DNA from: a candidate division Kazan bacterium RIFCSPLOWO2_01_FULL_48_13 | Lineage (GTDB): Bacteria > Patescibacteriota > Kazan-3B-28 > UBA10110 | DNA length: 34,605 nt | Direction: 5' to 3' | Assembly: GCA_001771275.1 (NCBI GenBank) | Contig: METE01000004.1 | Location: 1 to 34,605, forward strand | Shown here: piece after piece, positions 1,309 to 31,967 of the stretch | How positions within the stretch are numbered: position 1 is the first letter of the stretch | Layout of the letters: every line of letters starts with the position of its first letter | Position numbers and translations under genes: made by a program | The notes under the pieces: generated by a model | Told to the model about the DNA's origin: nothing | What the model saw: the letters and a program-made list of their open reading frames with translations, nothing else | The model's database searches: none

Positions 1309-1573
1309 GTGCTGAATCAACAAAACCACCGCTGTCGAAGCTGTTGTTTGAGGAGGGCTTTAGCCCAACGAGTTCAGCGAGAGGCGGAAAGGCGGTTTTG
1401 TTAGATGAAGCACAAGGGCGACTGGGCGTCCTTTTGGTGCTACCATTTTGGACGAGCAAAATGGTAGCAAAAAGCTGAACCGGAACAAATGGGTGGTGAA
1501 AATAATATTGTAAGATTCTGGACCCCAGTAGTAGAGCAAAGCTCACTACGGGGCGCGGCAAGCCAGAATGACG
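1309..1573 (+). repeat. Modular nested-hairpin repeat, copy I (nested hairpin + GCTACCATTTTG hairpin + GATTCTGG...CCAGAATGAC hairpin)
   Basis: Outer stem AACAAAACCACC/GGCGGTTTTGTT, TTGTTTGA-[GGGCTTTAGCCC]-ACGAGTTCAGC core, then GGGCGTCCTTTTGG linker and hairpin 1439-1468; shares modules with copies at 9418, 10255 and 17177. Confidence 0.75.
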
Positions 1574-10254: not shown

Positions 10255-10590
10255 CCCATTGAGCCAATTGCTCTTTTGTAGCCCATGCCATCGGAGGAGG
10301 AATGTTATCAATTGAGCTAAATCTCAGCTGGGTGGAGGCACTTGTTTGACCCATCTCCAGTTGCTTCAACTGGGGATGGGGAGTTGTGCCGAGAACGCCC
10401 AGAGACTTAGCCAATTGATAGTTCCGACGACTGGCCGTCCTTTTGGCGCTACCATTTTGGACGAGCAAAATGGTAGCAAGTAAATTAAGAAAGAATATTG
10501 CAAAGATTCTGGACTCCAATAATCGCGGGGCAGGCAAGCCAGTCCGCCAGAGCCCAAGGCTCCCCTTTGGGGCCGGCGGAGACGATGAGG
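10255..10590 (+). repeat. Modular nested-hairpin repeat, copy II
   Basis: CCCATTGAGCCAATTGC left end, outer stem TATCAATTGAGCTAAATCTC/GAGACTTAGCCAATTGATA, TTGTTTGA-[CCCATCTCCAGTTGCTTCAACTGGGGATGGG]-GAGTT, GGCCGTCCTTTTGGC linker, hairpin 10448-10477, GATTCTGGACTCC. Confidence 0.7.
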
Positions 10591-17176: not shown

Positions 17177-17476
17177 CCCATTGAACGAATTGCGTCAGCC
17201 AATAGCAAAACTGCCGTTTGGCGCGGCTGTTGTTTGAGTCCGTCAGCTGACGGACGAGTTCAGCCAATCGTGCCAAGTAAGGCAGTTTTTGCTTTTTGGC
17301 TAGCAATTTGTGATTGGGCGTCCTTTTGGCGCTACCATTTTGGACGAGCAAAATGGTAGCAAAAGAATATTGGGCAAGCAAAATGGTGGCAAAAAGATAT
17401 TTAAGGATTCATTGTACGATTCTGGACCCCAGTAGTAGAGCAAGGCTCACTACGGGGCGCGGCAAGCCAGAATGAC
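17177..17476 (+). repeat. Modular nested-hairpin repeat, copy III
   Basis: CCCATTGAACGAATTGC, stem GCCAATAGCAAAACTGCC/GGCAGTTTTTGCTTTTTGGC, TTGTTTGA-[GTCCGTCAGCTGACGGAC]-GAGTTCAGC, GATTGGGCGTCCTTTTGGC, hairpin 17331-17360, GATTCTGG...CCAGAATGAC. Confidence 0.75.
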
Positions 17477-25087: not shown

Positions 25088-25122
25088 AATCGAATAATAA
25101 GCTCTAAGACTGCTTTGGTCAA

Positions 25123-25153
25123 CCCATCTCCAGTTGTTGCAACTGGGGATGGG
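25123..25153. repeat. CCCATCTCCAGTTGTTGCAACTGGGGATGGG palindrome
   Basis: Near-identical to the inner palindrome at 10350-10380. Confidence 0.7.
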
Positions 25154-25188
25154 CAACCCCATCACTTTCTGTCGTTTTGGTAGAGGGG

Positions 25189-25755
25189 TCAATAAATCCC
25201 GGTAAGCGGGATCTCTTGGGCTCGAACCTTCTTAGCGATGGCCAAACCACGAACTGCTGATGGGGAATATAACGATAGGGCCTTAAGCCCGGCCCTCATG
25301 GAGCTCCCTGTAGTAACAACATCATCAATTAGGGTGACATCCTGCCCCCTAATCAAATCAGGATTATTGCATCGTAAACTGCGAAATTGCAAAGTAGCAT
25401 TGCGCGTATTCTTGGCAAGGGAATAGCGTCGCCCCAAACAACCGCTTCCGTTCACCCATTTAGCATTCATCCGACACAAATGTTTAACCAAGATAAACGG
25501 CAATTGTTTGCTCTTTGCCTTAAATTTATTAGTCGACGGGAACGGAACTAAAACTGTCCTGCTGTTTGATATTTCGTCCCGCAGCCAGCCAGCGATCTCT
25601 TTGGAGTAATCTCGCGCCCCCCGCTTTGTATCTATCACCTTGAGGGTACGACTACCTCGCAATCTATGCTCACCTAACTGATTACGATCCCGTTTCTCTA
25701 TAAAGTAATTTACGAATACGATATTGTGATCGCCAAATAGGTCTTTTTTTATCAC
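25189..25755 (-). CDS. Phosphoribosyltransferase-domain protein (ComF-like)
   Basis: PRPP-binding motif GQDVTLIDDVVTTGSSMRAGLKAL. Confidence 0.8.
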   Translation of the reverse strand: MIKKDLFGDHNIVFVNYFIEKRDRNQLGEHRLRGSRTLKVIDTKRGARDYSKEIAGWLRDEISNSRTVLVPFPSTNKFKAKSKQLPFILVKHLCRMNAKWVNGSGCLGRRYSLAKNTRNATLQFRSLRCNNPDLIRGQDVTLIDDVVTTGSSMRAGLKALSLYSPSAVRGLAIAKKVRAQEIPLTGIY

Positions 25756-26807
25756 TTCCTCTGATTTATCTTTTTATATAATTCGTCGAAAAACGATACG
25801 AGCGCCATTTCCGCATCTTCGTGCAAGTATAGATCAACTTGGGGATTGTTCAGGCTACACTTTTTCCCCACCATAATTAGCAGGGCATCTGGCACATCTT
25901 GTTTTATCAAGGTATCATTGATCAAACCGGCATCGGTGTCTCCGATGTGCAAAATTATGTGATTACTCGAAGAGATCTTGGCCCTTGCCAACCACTCCTT
26001 GAGACCGATACCCTTATTTACAAATGTGGTTAGTTTAGACAGCCTGGCAAAAATCAGATCGTGTTTGTCATATTTGTCGCTAAAGAACACCTTTCTCTTC
26101 AAGGAGTAGTTCCTAAAAATATCATTGCCCCTCACCCCAAGTAATCGTCCGAGTTGACTGATGTTATGCTCCGTTTTAGCAGTCAATCGCTCAAATAAGA
26201 GTCGATGACCAACCCACGATCTTATGACTGGGAATTCGACCCTCAACACCTCTCTTAATCCCTTATCGGATAATCGCCGAATATTCCGGATAGGCGGTAA
26301 TTGTCCTCCCTTAAACCAATCGCGCGGATTCTGAGCAAAAAATAAATCACGGTAATCTAATGCATGATCGTTATAGTAAACTATCCGACCTTTAGGATAG
26401 GACAAATCGACAAAAGGCAGCTGTCCACTTTCGACCCCCTTAAGCAAATGCCGCAAGGCGACTCGATCAATAATACTATTCTTATTAATATATTTTTTAC
26501 TGTTATGAACTATCAAACCACCCGAGTAAAGAACGGCATTCCGCAAATTTAGAAAACTTCTGCTAAACGCGGAGAAGCCCAGTAGATCCCTACCGGTATT
26601 AGGCAACAGAATAATTAGCTTGTCGGATACTAAACTCTTGATTATAGCCTTTACTTTTTTATTGATGTAATTGGAGCCTTTGTCGCGAATAACCAAGGTA
26701 TTATCCAAGTCCAAGCTAACTACTATGGGCAACCGCTTGCCCACAATATGTTCATCTAAAAAGGCGTCTATCGCTTTTTTCATCACACTATCAGCTATGT
26801 ATATCAA
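25752..26807 (-). CDS. HAD-superfamily hydrolase (phosphatase-like)
   Basis: VVSLDLDNTLVIRDKGS (DxDxT), LLPNTGRD, HIGDTDAGLINDTLI (GDxxxD-like motif). Confidence 0.82.
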   Translation of the reverse strand: MIYIADSVMKKAIDAFLDEHIVGKRLPIVVSLDLDNTLVIRDKGSNYINKKVKAIIKSLVSDKLIILLPNTGRDLLGFSAFSRSFLNLRNAVLYSGGLIVHNSKKYINKNSIIDRVALRHLLKGVESGQLPFVDLSYPKGRIVYYNDHALDYRDLFFAQNPRDWFKGGQLPPIRNIRRLSDKGLREVLRVEFPVIRSWVGHRLLFERLTAKTEHNISQLGRLLGVRGNDIFRNYSLKRKVFFSDKYDKHDLIFARLSKLTTFVNKGIGLKEWLARAKISSSNHIILHIGDTDAGLINDTLIKQDVPDALLIMVGKKCSLNNPQVDLYLHEDAEMALVSFFDELYKKINQRK

Positions 26808-28113
26808 CCATCTTTTGGTCTAAAAAATCAATCAGGCCCCCCGATCCTGGATCGGGTTGCGCAAAATGATTAGCTAGTATCAACGATAATATCAAGTCCT
26901 TTTCATCCATACCCGCTATGTCCTTAACTCCAATCGCCCGTAATAGAAACGCGCTTTGCAGTCTTCCTACCAACTCTTGTTCGCATCCGGCTGGCAATAA
27001 TCTGGTGACCGGCCGCACTACGCTATCCCGAAACTGCGTGTATATCTCTTGCTTTAGTTTGGGATAGGGAAACTGGCCATTAACCACCAGCTTCTGGTTT
27101 TTTCTATCTAACTCGCACGAAACAGTAACGCCAGACGAGAATTCCGATAGGCTATCATATTCCTGTCTATCCCTACTTCTCATGTCCGACAAAGTCTCTG
27201 TATTGAAATATTTGGGAATAAAGTAATGCCCTCCCGAGTAGTTGTAGTACGAAAAAATAGCAATATCTTGTATCAGATCGTTATAACCGCCGGTTTCAAA
27301 ATCAAAGAATTTGCCACACAGCGCCATATTAGTTTCGGTGGGATCACCCTGTGACAGTACAAAGAATCGATTGTGTTCCGGCGATAAGTCGTGCCGCGCT
27401 TTTTTAATCAACTCCCCCAATGTCAATGACATTATCTCTCCGTTGACAACAAAAGTCAGTTTTGATAAATCTTCGAATGTAATGCTTTCGGACAGGGATG
27501 GGAAATTAAACATTCTCCCAGCGTACAGCTGATCGATGCGGCCACCCGGCTTGACCCTATCGTAAAAGAACCTGTCATTTTGGCCATGCAAAATAAGCGG
27601 CATTTTAGTAAAGTGTCTCTGAAATATGCTTCCCATTGTGTCAAATAGCCGCCCAGTGCCTTGCAGCACCTTTTGAACATCTTGGGTATCAATCTGCTGT
27701 AAAATCCGGTTGATCTGACTTTGCATCTGCCCTTCCGAAGTACTGATTTCCTCACAATAATCTTGCAGATAGAGTCCATAATCATCGAGGAAGAAGTGAT
27801 CCACGATTCTCTCGTGAGGATATTCCGCCGCAATCTTATAACCCTGCAGTTCTTGCAGTATGCGACTCGGCTTAGATATTTTGAAAAATCTTTTTTCCCC
27901 CTCGACTTCTACGCACCCAAAAACACTTTTGCGTGTTTTGTGCGCTTCGACAACGCGATGATTAACCACGCCATATTCAGAAAGGCATTGATCAATTATC
28001 CCCTCCGCTTGGAGTCGGATTCTTTCCACATAGTCGCCCTCCTTCTCGACAGCCAGTCTATTTAAGGATATCTCCGGCTCATCAGGTTGTGGCGGCACAC
28101 CTTCGATGTTCAT
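26791..28113 (-). CDS. APH/choline-kinase-fold phosphotransferase-like protein
   Basis: FFVLSQGDPTETNMALCGKFFDFETGGYNDLIQDIAIF resembles the HGDxxxxN...D(F/L)E catalytic/metal loops. Confidence 0.65.
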   Translation of the reverse strand: MNIEGVPPQPDEPEISLNRLAVEKEGDYVERIRLQAEGIIDQCLSEYGVVNHRVVEAHKTRKSVFGCVEVEGEKRFFKISKPSRILQELQGYKIAAEYPHERIVDHFFLDDYGLYLQDYCEEISTSEGQMQSQINRILQQIDTQDVQKVLQGTGRLFDTMGSIFQRHFTKMPLILHGQNDRFFYDRVKPGGRIDQLYAGRMFNFPSLSESITFEDLSKLTFVVNGEIMSLTLGELIKKARHDLSPEHNRFFVLSQGDPTETNMALCGKFFDFETGGYNDLIQDIAIFSYYNYSGGHYFIPKYFNTETLSDMRSRDRQEYDSLSEFSSGVTVSCELDRKNQKLVVNGQFPYPKLKQEIYTQFRDSVVRPVTRLLPAGCEQELVGRLQSAFLLRAIGVKDIAGMDEKDLILSLILANHFAQPDPGSGGLIDFLDQKMVDIHS

Positions 28114-29243
28114 ATAGATCTCACCTTACGCATTATCTCTATATAAGAATCGGCGATGTTAGCCAATAATAGATCGGATAGCCCCCGGCGACCAATATGC
28201 CTTTTTATGGTAATCACATTAATAACAAATTTATACAGCTTAGCCCGATCAGGTAGGTAGTAATCGGCTATGCTGTCTGCGATTGTCCGAGTGAATTCCT
28301 CTTCGAGATCGCTCATTAGAACCTGCAAAACAGGATCGTTACTATACTCTGTATCTATCTCTAAGGCACCAGCCTTCAACGACACCACAGCTTTACCGCT
28401 ATTACCGGGGGCCTTTCCGTCTCTAATGTAAGCAACCCGATAGAACCTGTTCGCAAAATTAAACAGCTTGCCGATGTCCATCGCTAAATCGCCCAGCTCG
28501 TCTCCATTAGAAAGGTCCACTACCTTAAACCCATCCGGCCCTAAGATGATATTTGGTGGCTGAAAATCCCCCGTAATAGCCGAAAGATACGGCGGGTTGA
28601 ACCTTTGGAATAATTGCACCACATCATCCACCATCTCGTTGATGGACGGCAACGATATGCGCTCATCATTACTATTCAGAACAATTTTCATATTTATCAA
28701 ATCAGCAAAACCAATGACTGAGTCCCCGATCTGGATCTGCAGGTTCTGAGATAGGTCATCCAGCCGATCGGTCATATATTTTTCCACTCCACCCGCAATC
28801 TCAGTTTCATTCTTAGTGAGGGTGTCCAACCAAAGATGCTTGGCTGCTTGTTGCAATATACTGCGGATGCAAGTGTACACTTCACCCCATTGCCCATTTT
28901 TTCTCAATATAAAATCATCGAGAGTTTCTCCATCATAAAATGGCAACACCAATACCTCATTACTAATATTAGGGATTAAAATGGGTGACAGAAGAAACGG
29001 CTTATTACTGAACTTCGGACTCTGATAAATATTGTTCTCGCGTTCTACTTTTTCTCCTATTTTAACAAAATACTTCTTGCCGGAAGCCAAAAAAATTACT
29101 TTGCGAGCGCCGGTTTGCCCCCCTCTAACTTTTTCTTCAGAATACTGACCATCGCCAAAATACTCGCGGAGCACTTGCTCAATATGTTGAAAGTAGCTTT
29201 GGCTAACCAGCTGTCTTCTCTCGGATGCATTTATGATTCTCAT
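28110..29243 (-). CDS. APH/choline-kinase-fold phosphotransferase-like protein
   Basis: AITGDFQPPNIILGPDGFKVVDLSNGDELGDLAMDIGKLFNF resembles HGDxxxxNIL...VIDL...GDLAxD; N-lobe KKYFVKIG lysine. Confidence 0.7.
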   Translation of the reverse strand: MRIINASERRQLVSQSYFQHIEQVLREYFGDGQYSEEKVRGGQTGARKVIFLASGKKYFVKIGEKVERENNIYQSPKFSNKPFLLSPILIPNISNEVLVLPFYDGETLDDFILRKNGQWGEVYTCIRSILQQAAKHLWLDTLTKNETEIAGGVEKYMTDRLDDLSQNLQIQIGDSVIGFADLINMKIVLNSNDERISLPSINEMVDDVVQLFQRFNPPYLSAITGDFQPPNIILGPDGFKVVDLSNGDELGDLAMDIGKLFNFANRFYRVAYIRDGKAPGNSGKAVVSLKAGALEIDTEYSNDPVLQVLMSDLEEEFTRTIADSIADYYLPDRAKLYKFVINVITIKRHIGRRGLSDLLLANIADSYIEIMRKVRSI

Positions 29244-30346
29244 AACGCATTTACCCTCGCAACAAAATCACTGACTACATCTTTTATCAGCTCAACCCCA
29301 ACATTACGCGCTATCCCCCATCCACTATCAGTGGGAATAATAAAATTATAACAACCCCGGGTATTGATTTTGTCCATAGACAATACAGCTAACAGATTGG
29401 ATGAGGTCATTTGTTTGACCACTCTCCGATCCTTTTCTACATAGCGATGGAAAAGGCCAAATGTATCGACTATGCTTTCGAGTCTCGATTTTTTCAGCTT
29501 CTGCATCCGACGGGCAATTAAGGCGGCAAATAATATGCCGTACGCAACTGCCTCGCCGTGGTTAATCATCGGGTCTCGCTCTAAATAATTGGCTATGGTA
29601 TGACCCAGGCTCAAGGCCCTATGATGCCCGTTGGCATCATAGGGGTCTGATTTAACAAAATGTGTCTTGACGGTTAACGATTCGCTAATTATATCGAGTG
29701 GCAATTTAGTAAATTGTCCGGTAATTAAAAGATGCTCTACCTTGCCCAAAAGTGAAGTGTGGCGCCCCACTATGGCATGCTTCCACACTTCAACCAGACC
29801 ACAGACAATCTGCCGTGGAGATAGACTATCCAAGAAATTAGCGTCGCAAATGGTATATCTTGGCGAATAAAAAGAACCTATCAGGTTTTTCTCTCCCATA
29901 AAATTAATTGCCACCTTGCCGATTATGGAGTCGCCTTGGGACATTAGGGTGGTAGGCACATATACCATAGTGATGCCCCGCATATATACGGAGGCGATGA
30001 AACCCATCAAATCACCCAGATGGCCGCCCCCGATAACCACCAAACAGCTCTGACGACTAAGGGGAAACTTGCGCATACGGTGCAACACCCTCCCTACTTG
30101 GTTATAATCTTTACGAATTGTATCTGCCAATAAAATGAGAGGTATTTTGAGACTTCGCTTCAACCGACCTGCCATCATTTTAACCCGCGGGCTCTCGTGT
30201 ACCTTCGCATCAACTACCAATAATAGCTGGTCAAACTGACCATCTTTAATAAACTTGGTTAATACCGGAATGAAATTGTTCCCAACAACAATGTCTTGGT
30301 TAACTCGGGGCAGATGAATGCGAATTGTCTCGTGGATTAATAACAT
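29240..30346 (-). CDS. Sugar phosphate cyclase superfamily (3-dehydroquinate synthase-like) enzyme
   Basis: LVVIGGGHLGDLMGFIASVYMRGITMVYVPTTLMSQGDSIIGKVAINFMGEKNLIGSFYSPR, GLVEVWKHAIV, RALSLGHTIANYLE, INHGEAVAYGI. Confidence 0.88.
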   Translation of the reverse strand: MLLIHETIRIHLPRVNQDIVVGNNFIPVLTKFIKDGQFDQLLLVVDAKVHESPRVKMMAGRLKRSLKIPLILLADTIRKDYNQVGRVLHRMRKFPLSRQSCLVVIGGGHLGDLMGFIASVYMRGITMVYVPTTLMSQGDSIIGKVAINFMGEKNLIGSFYSPRYTICDANFLDSLSPRQIVCGLVEVWKHAIVGRHTSLLGKVEHLLITGQFTKLPLDIISESLTVKTHFVKSDPYDANGHHRALSLGHTIANYLERDPMINHGEAVAYGILFAALIARRMQKLKKSRLESIVDTFGLFHRYVEKDRRVVKQMTSSNLLAVLSMDKINTRGCYNFIIPTDSGWGIARNVGVELIKDVVSDFVARVNAL

Positions 30347-30450
30347 GTTTTATCAGCACTCCATTTGTTAAGCTTAGAACAAAATAATCGAACCAATACC
30401 ATGGCTCAATAGCATTACTCCTGTTAGTAAGAGCCAGCCCCTATCTAACT

Positions 30451-30852
30451 TCACTTACTCAGCAGGACGGCGGCCTCGGTATAACTGCTCAACCGCTCGG
30501 TTAAGGGCGCCCCGCCCAACAGATGAAAATGCAGGTGTGGCACCACTTGTCCGCCCCACTTGCCCACATTTACCGTTACCCGATAACCGCTATCGGCGAT
30601 GTTTAACTTCTTAGCTAACTCCTTGCACCGATAAATCATCTTGCCCATCAGTTCCTTATCCTTCGGAGTGATATCGGCCAAACTGGCGATATGTTTTTTG
30701 GGAACCACCAACACATGGATCGGCGCATGGGGATGAATATCATCAAAAGCGATCATATCCGCATCGGCAAACCGTTGGCTGACCGGCAGCTTGCCATTAG
30801 CGATCTGACAGAACGGGCAATCCTTAGCTGACCTTTTGAGAGGACGCTTCAT
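30451..30852 (-). CDS. HIT family (HinT-like) protein
   Basis: DCPFCQIANGKLPVSQRFADADMIAFDDIHPHAPIHVLVVPKKHI and GGQVVPHLHFHLLGG; start taken at MKRPLKRSAKDC. Confidence 0.94.
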   Translation of the reverse strand: MKRPLKRSAKDCPFCQIANGKLPVSQRFADADMIAFDDIHPHAPIHVLVVPKKHIASLADITPKDKELMGKMIYRCKELAKKLNIADSGYRVTVNVGKWGGQVVPHLHFHLLGGAPLTERLSSYTEAAVLLSK

Positions 30853-30981
30853 CCCGTTAGAAATCCTCGGCACAAAAATACATAGTCTTTTTGTGCGCAG
30901 TTAATAATATATAAGCTTTAAAAATAGTTGGTATCTTTAGTTGAATATTAAAATGGGTTAGCGGCAGACTTCTAACGGGAT
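30851..30981. repeat. 131-bp segment bounded by perfect 12-bp ATCCCGTTAGAA/TTCTAACGGGAT inverted repeats (no gene inside)
   Basis: Same ends as those bounding the GIY-YIG ORF at 32287-32575. Confidence 0.7.
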
Positions 30982-31967
30982 TCATCCAGTTTAATTATCT
31001 GGTTGATAATATTCTTTACTTCAACCGCGATCAACCGCTTATTCTTATTATCCCTCTCCCCCGTCGCCAAATCGTAGAGGATGCCAGTTAACGACAATAC
31101 AAAGGTCGGCTCTTTGTCGGCTCCCGTCAGCCCATATCCAGCTCTAATCTGATTAACCCAAGTTTCCAGACTCAACTTTTCATCATCAATCTTTAATAAT
31201 GTCCAAGCCAAGAACCGCATCGGCACATAGTGGCGTGGCCGGGTGGTGATGTCTATATCAACTACTCCCATTCGATGTTCTAAGCTATCATACGGCACAA
31301 TTAAATGATCACCATTCGGGTCTCGCCAAATCCGCACCATATCATTTAACTCGGATTGGTGTCGCTGAGTATAGGTCTGAACCTGATCAATAAAATTCTC
31401 ATTAATTAAATCGGACCGGGTTAGCTCAGCGTCCGCCAAGATCGGCTTTATCCAACCCTTCTCATCGTTGTTGGACAACTTTTGCGCTACCCACTCGCGT
31501 CCATTATCAGCCTCATCCTTTTCTAATGGCGCTTGGTTCAATAGGCCATCTATACTACTTAAAGTCTCAAACACTTTTTCCATTAGGTCGGGCTGCTTCC
31601 AAAACTTTTCCCGCGACACTGGCATGCCCTTTAGATGCTCAAATAATATATACCGACCCGGTTCCTCTCTTTTAACCTGAGGAACCCGAAATAACTTGTT
31701 GTCAGTGGCCAGCTGACGCAGATGATTAGTCTGTTCTGCTTCGCGATCGTTGAAATTGCCAATCTTCAAGTTGAATTTGGTTCTATGGCTGTCCTCCACC
31801 AAGAACATATTGAATTTGGGCTTAATCCCATCACCAGCCGAAAATTCACCAACTGGATTATGATTCAGATCAATCTTTTCTCCGCCGGTAAATCGCGCTG
31901 ACGGCCGAACACCCAACTCATCGCAGAGCTGATCTAATGGACTAAGCTGTGACCAACGCTCAATCAT
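30972..31967 (-). CDS. Hypothetical protein with APH/kinase-like features (possibly degenerate)
   Basis: KFNLKIGNFNDREAEQTNHLRQLA...FRVPQVKREEPGRYILFEHLKGMPVS N-lobe-like and RDPNGDHLIVPYDSLEHRMGVVDIDIT C-lobe-like segment. Confidence 0.5.
   Translation of the reverse strand: MIERWSQLSPLDQLCDELGVRPSARFTGGEKIDLNHNPVGEFSAGDGIKPKFNMFLVEDSHRTKFNLKIGNFNDREAEQTNHLRQLATDNKLFRVPQVKREEPGRYILFEHLKGMPVSREKFWKQPDLMEKVFETLSSIDGLLNQAPLEKDEADNGREWVAQKLSNNDEKGWIKPILADAELTRSDLINENFIDQVQTYTQRHQSELNDMVRIWRDPNGDHLIVPYDSLEHRMGVVDIDITTRPRHYVPMRFLAWTLLKIDDEKLSLETWVNQIRAGYGLTGADKEPTFVLSLTGILYDLATGERDNKNKRLIAVEVKNIINQIIKLDESR

Follow-up and report, generated by a model that had tools for sequence, protein, structure and literature searches.

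Acarbose biosynthesis starts with AcbC, a cyclase similar to dehydroquinate synthase (DHQS), and proceeds through the 7-kinase AcbM, the 1-kinase AcbU and the phosphatase AcbJ before nucleotidylation takes place (PMC9200736). In the DHQS of S. aureus and M. tuberculosis eleven residues, R242, N246 and H253 included, form the pocket that accommodates 3-deoxy-D-arabino-heptulosonate 7-phosphate (DAHP), and an N246A mutant lost almost all DHQS activity (PMC6262012). A set of five genes headed by a related cyclase is found in a 34,605-nt stretch of DNA (hereafter the window; contig METE01000004.1) of candidate division Kazan bacterium RIFCSPLOWO2_01_FULL_48_13. The host, one of the Patescibacteria or candidate phyla radiation (CPR), is a very small bacterium; its genome measures 0.79 Mb in 20 contigs, with a completeness of 97.5%. 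The cyclase gene is followed by genes for two kinase-like proteins denominated K1 and K2, a phosphatase of the haloacid dehalogenase (HAD) type and a phosphoribosyltransferase (PRTase)-fold protein. We regard it as fairly likely that the five genes make up a mobile biosynthetic pathway to a phosphorylated cyclitol, following a logic like that of acarbose biosynthesis. The product is probably a phosphorylated ring sugar, and not aromatic amino acids, because the cyclase belongs to a separate branch of sugar-to-ring cyclases.

Organization of the five-gene set

A previous reading of the DNA, made from sequence only, had recognized five overlapping open reading frames (ORFs) on the minus strand. 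Coordinates, strand and overlaps were all confirmed (Table 1): from the cyclase to the PRTase gene, successive ORFs overlap by 4, 4, 17 and 4 nt. The longest overlap, that of the K2 and HAD genes, hinges on the TTG start of the latter; an ATG eight codons inward (26783) leaves a 7-nt gap instead. The coding signal of all five ORFs is confined to the annotated frame of each. The block exceeds chance co-direction, as it is missing as a unit in a genome of the same genus (G001) in which flanking synteny is kept, and differs in G+C content from the rest of the window. The protein families assigned in the sequence-only reading hold for the cyclase and the HAD phosphatase, which score above Pfam cut-offs. 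The PRTase scores just below its cut-off, though its loop for phosphoribosyl pyrophosphate (PRPP) is intact, and K1 and K2 are recognized by motif and by weak transitive matches.

Table 1. Position of the five genes, of the insertion and of features at its left edge (window coordinates)
Feature	Position	Strand	Description and evidence
Sugar phosphate cyclase (putative), clade newly found here	29240..30346	minus	368 aa; DHQ_synthase domains, aroB models, fingerprint, tree
K1	28110..29243	minus	377 aa; APH/choline-kinase-like by motif ITGDFQPPNII...KVVDLSNGD; 4-nt overlap with cyclase gene
K2	26791..28113	minus	440 aa; APH/choline-kinase-like by motif LSQGDPTETNM...FFDFETGG
HAD-IIB (Cof-type) phosphatase	25752..26807	minus	351 aa; TTG start; motifs DLDNT, NTGRD, GDTDAGLIND
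Phosphoribosyltransferase-fold protein	25189..25755	minus	188 aa; GTG start; PRPP loop VTLIDDVVTTGSSMRAG
Insertion extent	25126..30453		flank alignment to L148:12537-12546, and synteny with G001
29-bp palindromic repeat at left insertion edge	25124..25152		pattern search of own genome
rpsU promoter-like site TTGACC-17-TATTAT, directly beside insertion edge	25094..25122	minus	consensus scan; aligned region present in the G001 empty site

The cyclase and its clade

By its sequence, the cyclase is a putative member of the sugar phosphate cyclase superfamily, separate from ordinary DHQS. Two domains exceed the Pfam cut-offs (PF01761, 110.7 bits, cut-off 24.2; PF24621, 64.4 bits, cut-off 27.6). The best curated model is aroB (TIGR01357), yet the score of 215.1 bits stays under the cut-off of 305 set for AroB equivalogs; the score to TIGR04425 is 166.7 bits, with a cut-off of 400. 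Homologues are found in 45 of 380 genomes of the phylum; just two of them, in G291 (277 bits) and G264 (253 bits), come near the window cyclase, and the next scores 125 bits. A profile made of the three sequences retrieved five further clade members from genome contigs (L062 to L066, 159-203 bits), ordinary DHQS reaching at most 148 bits. The scan for clade members relied on two short peptide patterns, and more may exist; several of the relatives are known from contigs of metagenome-assembled genomes (MAGs). In a maximum-likelihood tree the eight cyclases, from seven bacterial carriers, all Patescibacteria, and one Nanoarchaeota MAG, form one branch with support 100/99, within which the window cyclase and those of G291 and G264, both linked to K2 relatives, group again at 100/99. 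As the tree is unrooted and leaves the deep branching order open, the clade may still have arisen inside DHQS. When a profile of the cyclase was run against the PDB, 2-deoxy-scyllo-inosose synthase (DOIS, 2d2x/2gru) came out third-best at 169.7 bits, and the C7 cyclases EEVS and DDGS, which are not included in the tree, scored lower (5tpr, 116 bits; 4p53, 105 bits). Neither the cyclase nor the HAD protein has a match in viral contigs, and the phage matches of the cyclase resemble ordinary host DHQS. Going by open-licence papers, the clade and its fingerprint appear undescribed.

The Zn ligands E186, H249 and H263 are kept in all eight clade members. The catalytic Asp, Lys and Asn residues are also invariant in the clade (D139, K144, K189, K227 and K326 in 8/8), and R123, D139, K144, N154, K189, K227 and K326 are all found in the window cyclase. 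The fingerprint of the latter is D237/H242/S246/N253/I327. At positions 237, 242, 246 and 253 each of the eight proteins has D, H, S and N, respectively, whereas the other homologues feature E (97/110), R (107/110), N (107/110) and H (107/110); at position 327, I or L replaces K. Three of the eleven residues of the DAHP pocket are hence altered throughout the clade (Arg242 to His, Asn246 to Ser, His253 to Asn; M. tuberculosis numbering). Of these, R242 holds the substrate carboxylate, as in the A. nidulans structure. Since the DAHP pocket is altered and the residues required for the chemistry are intact, the cyclase would still close a ring, and ring formation from a substrate other than DAHP is the simplest inference. 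A perfect 12-bp hairpin within the cyclase gene (29617-29644) coincides exactly with the codons for the fingerprint loop (PYDANGHHRA); none was obtained in 20 shuffles of the window.

Other Patescibacteria host cyclases of different affiliation. Those of G112 (in L019:5833-13044) and G217 (L059:5816-6922), genomes with no chorismate synthase, group with DOIS (100/98). Beside the L019 cyclase are found genes for a probable ATP-grasp protein (no Pfam match), a methyltransferase, a NUDIX protein and an APH kinase, an ensemble reminiscent of mycosporine clusters. The AroB paralogues in L018 and L020 have a DHQS-like pocket, and adjoin members of a shared family (DLRENHxVxGxKAEFEAEGTR) resembling HpcH/HpaI-type aldolases, possibly the context of TIGR04425.

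Shikimate pathway genes

An ordinary DHQS of the shikimate pathway, surrounded by unrelated genes, could also have aroB as best model and a conserved catalytic core, and the window cyclase is the sole DHQ_synthase match in its genome. Models for chorismate synthase (PF01264) and shikimate dehydrogenase (PF08501) both match 14 of 14 control genomes. No chorismate synthase was found in the own genome or in the six other bacterial carriers of a clade cyclase, and no shikimate dehydrogenase in any of the eight carriers, with the proviso that completeness is unstated for several genomes other than the window's own. Among carriers, chorismate synthase is present only in the Nanoarchaeota MAG, an assembly of 1.7 Mb that is possibly mixed. 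By contrast, chorismate synthase is found in five relatives whose DHQS is ordinary. Four tests (the score to the model, the pocket, the tree and the lack of pathway genes) rule out an ordinary DHQS, which we find hardly credible. The doubt cast in the sequence-only reading on a role in aromatic amino-acid synthesis was thus well placed: a full shikimate pathway accompanied by a bona fide DHQS, the finding that would have dispelled it, is not what the genome holds, and the cyclase lies outside the DHQS clade with a mismatched pocket.

Insertion of the cassette

The G+C content of the five genes is 43.6%, against 48.4% in the remaining window, and at third codon positions it ranges from 46 to 48%, while the neighbouring and core genes examined have 50 to 64%. 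In G001, whose hisS is 92% identical, the order rpsU-HIT-APH-hisS-secF is conserved and the five genes are missing. The rpsU and HIT genes touch at the empty site, where the aligned HIT and rpsU flanks lie some 8 bp apart (L148:12537-12546). The five genes are also missing in two genomes of the same family, G003 and G002. Because G001 keeps the flanking order with only about 8 bp at the site, the five genes represent one clean insertion; loss in all relatives is a less simple alternative. As part of the preferred reading, and with the same fair degree of confidence, the insertion is taken to be recent and the genes to be a horizontally acquired cassette.

The palindrome at the left edge sits directly upstream of the rpsU promoter-like site. 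Its consensus, CCATCYCCAGTTGnnnCAACTGGRGATGG, has seven copies per strand in the genome and none in the reversed control. Apart from the copy at the edge (25124-25152), one is found in the window at 10351-10379, and the remaining five lie outside the window. Three copies of another dispersed hairpin, GCTACCATTTTG-loop-CAAAATGGTAGC, are present in the window (1438-1469, 10448-10477, 17331-17360), with an identical loop. Two neighbours, the HIT gene and an APH-like gene (30972-31967), were considered as cassette members and rejected, both being core genes in relatives. The APH-like gene, located beside hisS, is intact here, and in G001 it is split into two overlapping ORFs (L148:12919-13888).

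Kinase-like proteins

K1 and K2 have no significant Pfam match, and none to the APH/choline-kinase clan. A putative APH fold is suggested by Brenner-type motifs and weak transitive matches. K1 has a weak relative in L019:8185-9114 (E 2e-5), which itself matches PF01636 at 37.2 bits; profile comparisons point weakly to methylthioribose kinase for K1 (E 0.044) and to choline kinase for K2 (E 0.014), and relatives also match three families of the clan weakly. The two proteins are not detectably homologous to each other by BLASTP (E 0.19), and a comparison of profiles is weak (E 0.036). No match to K1 was found in viral contigs, plasmids or phages, and no close homologue among the 380 genomes. K2 used as single query matches nothing in the genome contigs. 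Its homologues are L052:5981-7021 in G291, and the C-terminal part of L053:6614-8593 in G264, a fusion of a nucleotidyltransferase (NTase)-like protein and a kinase. A profile of these two proteins recovers K2 at E 1e-11, and one of K2 and the G264 protein recovers that of G291 at E 2e-7.

By their APH-type motifs, K1 and K2 might be resistance genes in a cassette for inactivation or salvage of small molecules, the HAD and PRTase proteins acting as scavengers and the cyclase being recruited for another reaction, and a recent insertion would suit such a cassette. K2 is nevertheless tied to the clade cyclase in three bacterial families, and the cyclase retains all residues for ring closure; we deem this explanation very improbable.

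Phosphatase and phosphoribosyltransferase-fold protein

The HAD protein carries the motifs of its family and matches PF08282 (Hydrolase_3/Cof) at 29.1 bits, over a cut-off of 20.9. No other close copy was found in the 380 genomes, and K1, K2 and HAD are nearly orphan proteins. The PRTase scores 25.4 bits to PF00156, with a cut-off of 26.3. Its closest model is ShosT of PADLOC (E 7e-10), and a relative encoded by a Hymenobacter plasmid adjoins DprA, as in ShosTA systems. The cassette could on these grounds be an element of conflict or defence with the ShosT-like PRTase as its effector, and the four other proteins would then produce or remove either a signal resembling a nucleotide or a toxin that carries phosphate; a recent insertion would agree with this, and K1 and HAD are near-orphans, like arms-race genes. 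No ShosA/DprA-like gene is found in or beside the cassette, however, and the other cassette proteins have no meaningful match in PADLOC. The PRTase is the final gene of an operon that looks metabolic, and relatives of the cyclase neighbour NUDIX, NTase and methyltransferase genes, not known defence genes. A defence cassette is considered unlikely.

Gene neighbourhoods in relatives

The K2 family is linked to the clade cyclase. The K2 profile matches four of the 380 genomes, the own genome, G291, G264 and, weakly, G027; the first three, belonging to three different families, are the only ones of the 380 to host a clade cyclase, and in each cyclase and K2 lie within about 2.5 kb. The chance of such co-occurrence is about 4 in 9 million if labels are independent, a figure that ignores relatedness. 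HAD genes pair with K2 in the own genome, G291 and G027. In G027 (L160:6290-8352) the HAD and K2-like genes are located inside a histidine biosynthesis operon, between apparent hisD and hisC. The sequence-only reading had asked that the five genes be co-located in relatives; this is borne out only in part, as cyclase and K2-type kinase are neighbours in genomes of the three families, and the full set was found in the own genome only.

In other relatives the cyclase is surrounded by genes for a methyltransferase, an NDK-P-loop kinase, NUDIX proteins (fused to an NTase or a GT2 glycosyltransferase), an NTase and an HprK-like protein, and the G291 locus adds a NodU/TobZ-type carbamoyltransferase. 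Past the cyclase, L052:10925-14394 (Berkelbacteria) encodes a NUDIX protein, a double P-loop kinase akin to the NDK-P-loop kinases seen in other clusters, a second NTase-like protein and a guanylate-kinase-like protein. Open-licence papers yielded no account of a cluster of this kind from Patescibacteria.

These neighbours bring to mind a cell-envelope pathway, in which the cyclitol is activated and then built into a surface glycan or a lipid head group. GT2-NUDIX fusion, NTase, HprK-like protein and methyltransferase are found around the cyclase in the relatives from Levybacteria and Nomurabacteria, and cells of Patescibacteria such as these live attached to hosts. The cassette, on the other side, has no glycosyltransferase, flippase or polyprenol enzyme, and an envelope pathway is judged improbable.

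Proposed pathway

In the cyclitol pathway that we favour, the substrate of a Zn/NAD-dependent cyclase would be a sugar phosphate different from DAHP, likely one of the C6 or C7 type, and closure of the carbocycle would release its phosphate. K1 and K2 would next add phosphate to the cyclitol, at one position or at two, and the HAD phosphatase would strip one phosphate again; two kinase steps and a phosphatase step are likewise part of acarbose biosynthesis. As for the PRTase-fold protein, it might couple the cyclitol to ribose-5-phosphate from PRPP, or serve as a regulator. The product might decorate the envelope or be a diffusible metabolite.

Several observations weigh against this pathway. 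The complete five-gene set was seen only in the own genome, and is not conserved elsewhere. K1 and K2 lack a significant direct family match, and their structure models are unusable (pLDDT 33.1 for K1, from a single sequence, and 33.8 for K2, from three). It is hard to see what the PRTase would do in a cyclitol pathway. The cassette encodes no aminotransferase, dehydrogenase, nucleotidyltransferase or transporter, and the pathway would for this reason be either very short or dependent on host enzymes.

The sequence-only reading had left the choice between a cyclitol- and a nucleoside-like metabolite. The former agrees best with the data; the latter would hang on one PRTase-fold protein, which could be regulatory or ShosT-like. 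A bolder proposal combines the two: a new cyclase class, met to date in ultra-small Patescibacteria and a single DPANN MAG only, would start a new natural-product-like pathway in organisms believed to produce next to nothing, and in the own genome the ring product would be phosphorylated and PRPP-coupled to give a cyclitol nucleoside-like compound. This is conceivable, but doubtful. Two other cluster types were also rejected. Ter-type nucleoside operons include ATP-grasp, Pelota and CitE-like partners, all missing here; clusters for mycosporine-like amino acids do not fit, as there is no ATP-grasp or methyltransferase gene (L019 has candidates for both).

With their tiny genomes, Patescibacteria are considered to obtain most of their building blocks from hosts. 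A cyclase cluster that recurs, is transferred and does not serve aromatic amino acids would represent a dedicated product of these cells. Since the active-site fingerprint is clean and clade members are available from several genomes, the substrate of the clade is directly testable in vitro.

Comparison with known systems

The window cyclase shares with AroB (TIGR01357) the fold, the Zn ligands, the catalytic Asp/Lys/Asn set and the phosphate-binding residues. It departs from AroB by the R242H, N246S and H253N changes, by an E-to-D change in the pocket and a KK-to-KI change near the C-terminus, and also by the score under the cut-off, the lack of shikimate partners and the separate clade. DOIS has in common with it the cyclase fold, the Zn site and the loss of Arg at position 242, but features G242 and E246, keeps H253, and groups with the CPR cyclases of L019 and L059; by tree and fingerprint, the window cyclase neither clusters with DOIS nor has its pocket. 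TIGR04425, an AroB-related putative sugar phosphate phospholyase, is likewise an AroB paralogue outside shikimate metabolism. The pocket of its possible CPR examples, L006 and L007, is DHQS-like (R, N, H), in contrast to that of the window cyclase, which scores far below the cut-off of the model. As to the PRTase, the absence of a ShosA/DprA partner and the overlap with the HAD phosphatase gene set it apart from ShosTA.

The acarbose and validamycin clusters (AcbC, AcbM, AcbU, AcbJ) combine a cyclase, two kinases and a phosphatase, the same kinds and number as found here. Their kinases are of ROK/sugar-kinase types, and their epimerase, dehydrogenase, NTase and glycosyltransferases are missing in the cassette, which has an extra PRTase-fold protein where the nucleotidyltransferase would stand. 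No NTase is encoded by the five genes, though NTases accompany most relatives of the cyclase. By analogy, the cassette would work as the first part of a pseudosugar pathway does, but it does not belong to that family, as the kinase types differ and the NTase is missing. The cyclase clade is a variant within a known enzyme superfamily, set in a gene context that is new. A new ring-forming activity, if true, would give one more branch to a superfamily whose members open the routes to acarbose, validamycin, aminoglycosides and sunscreens.

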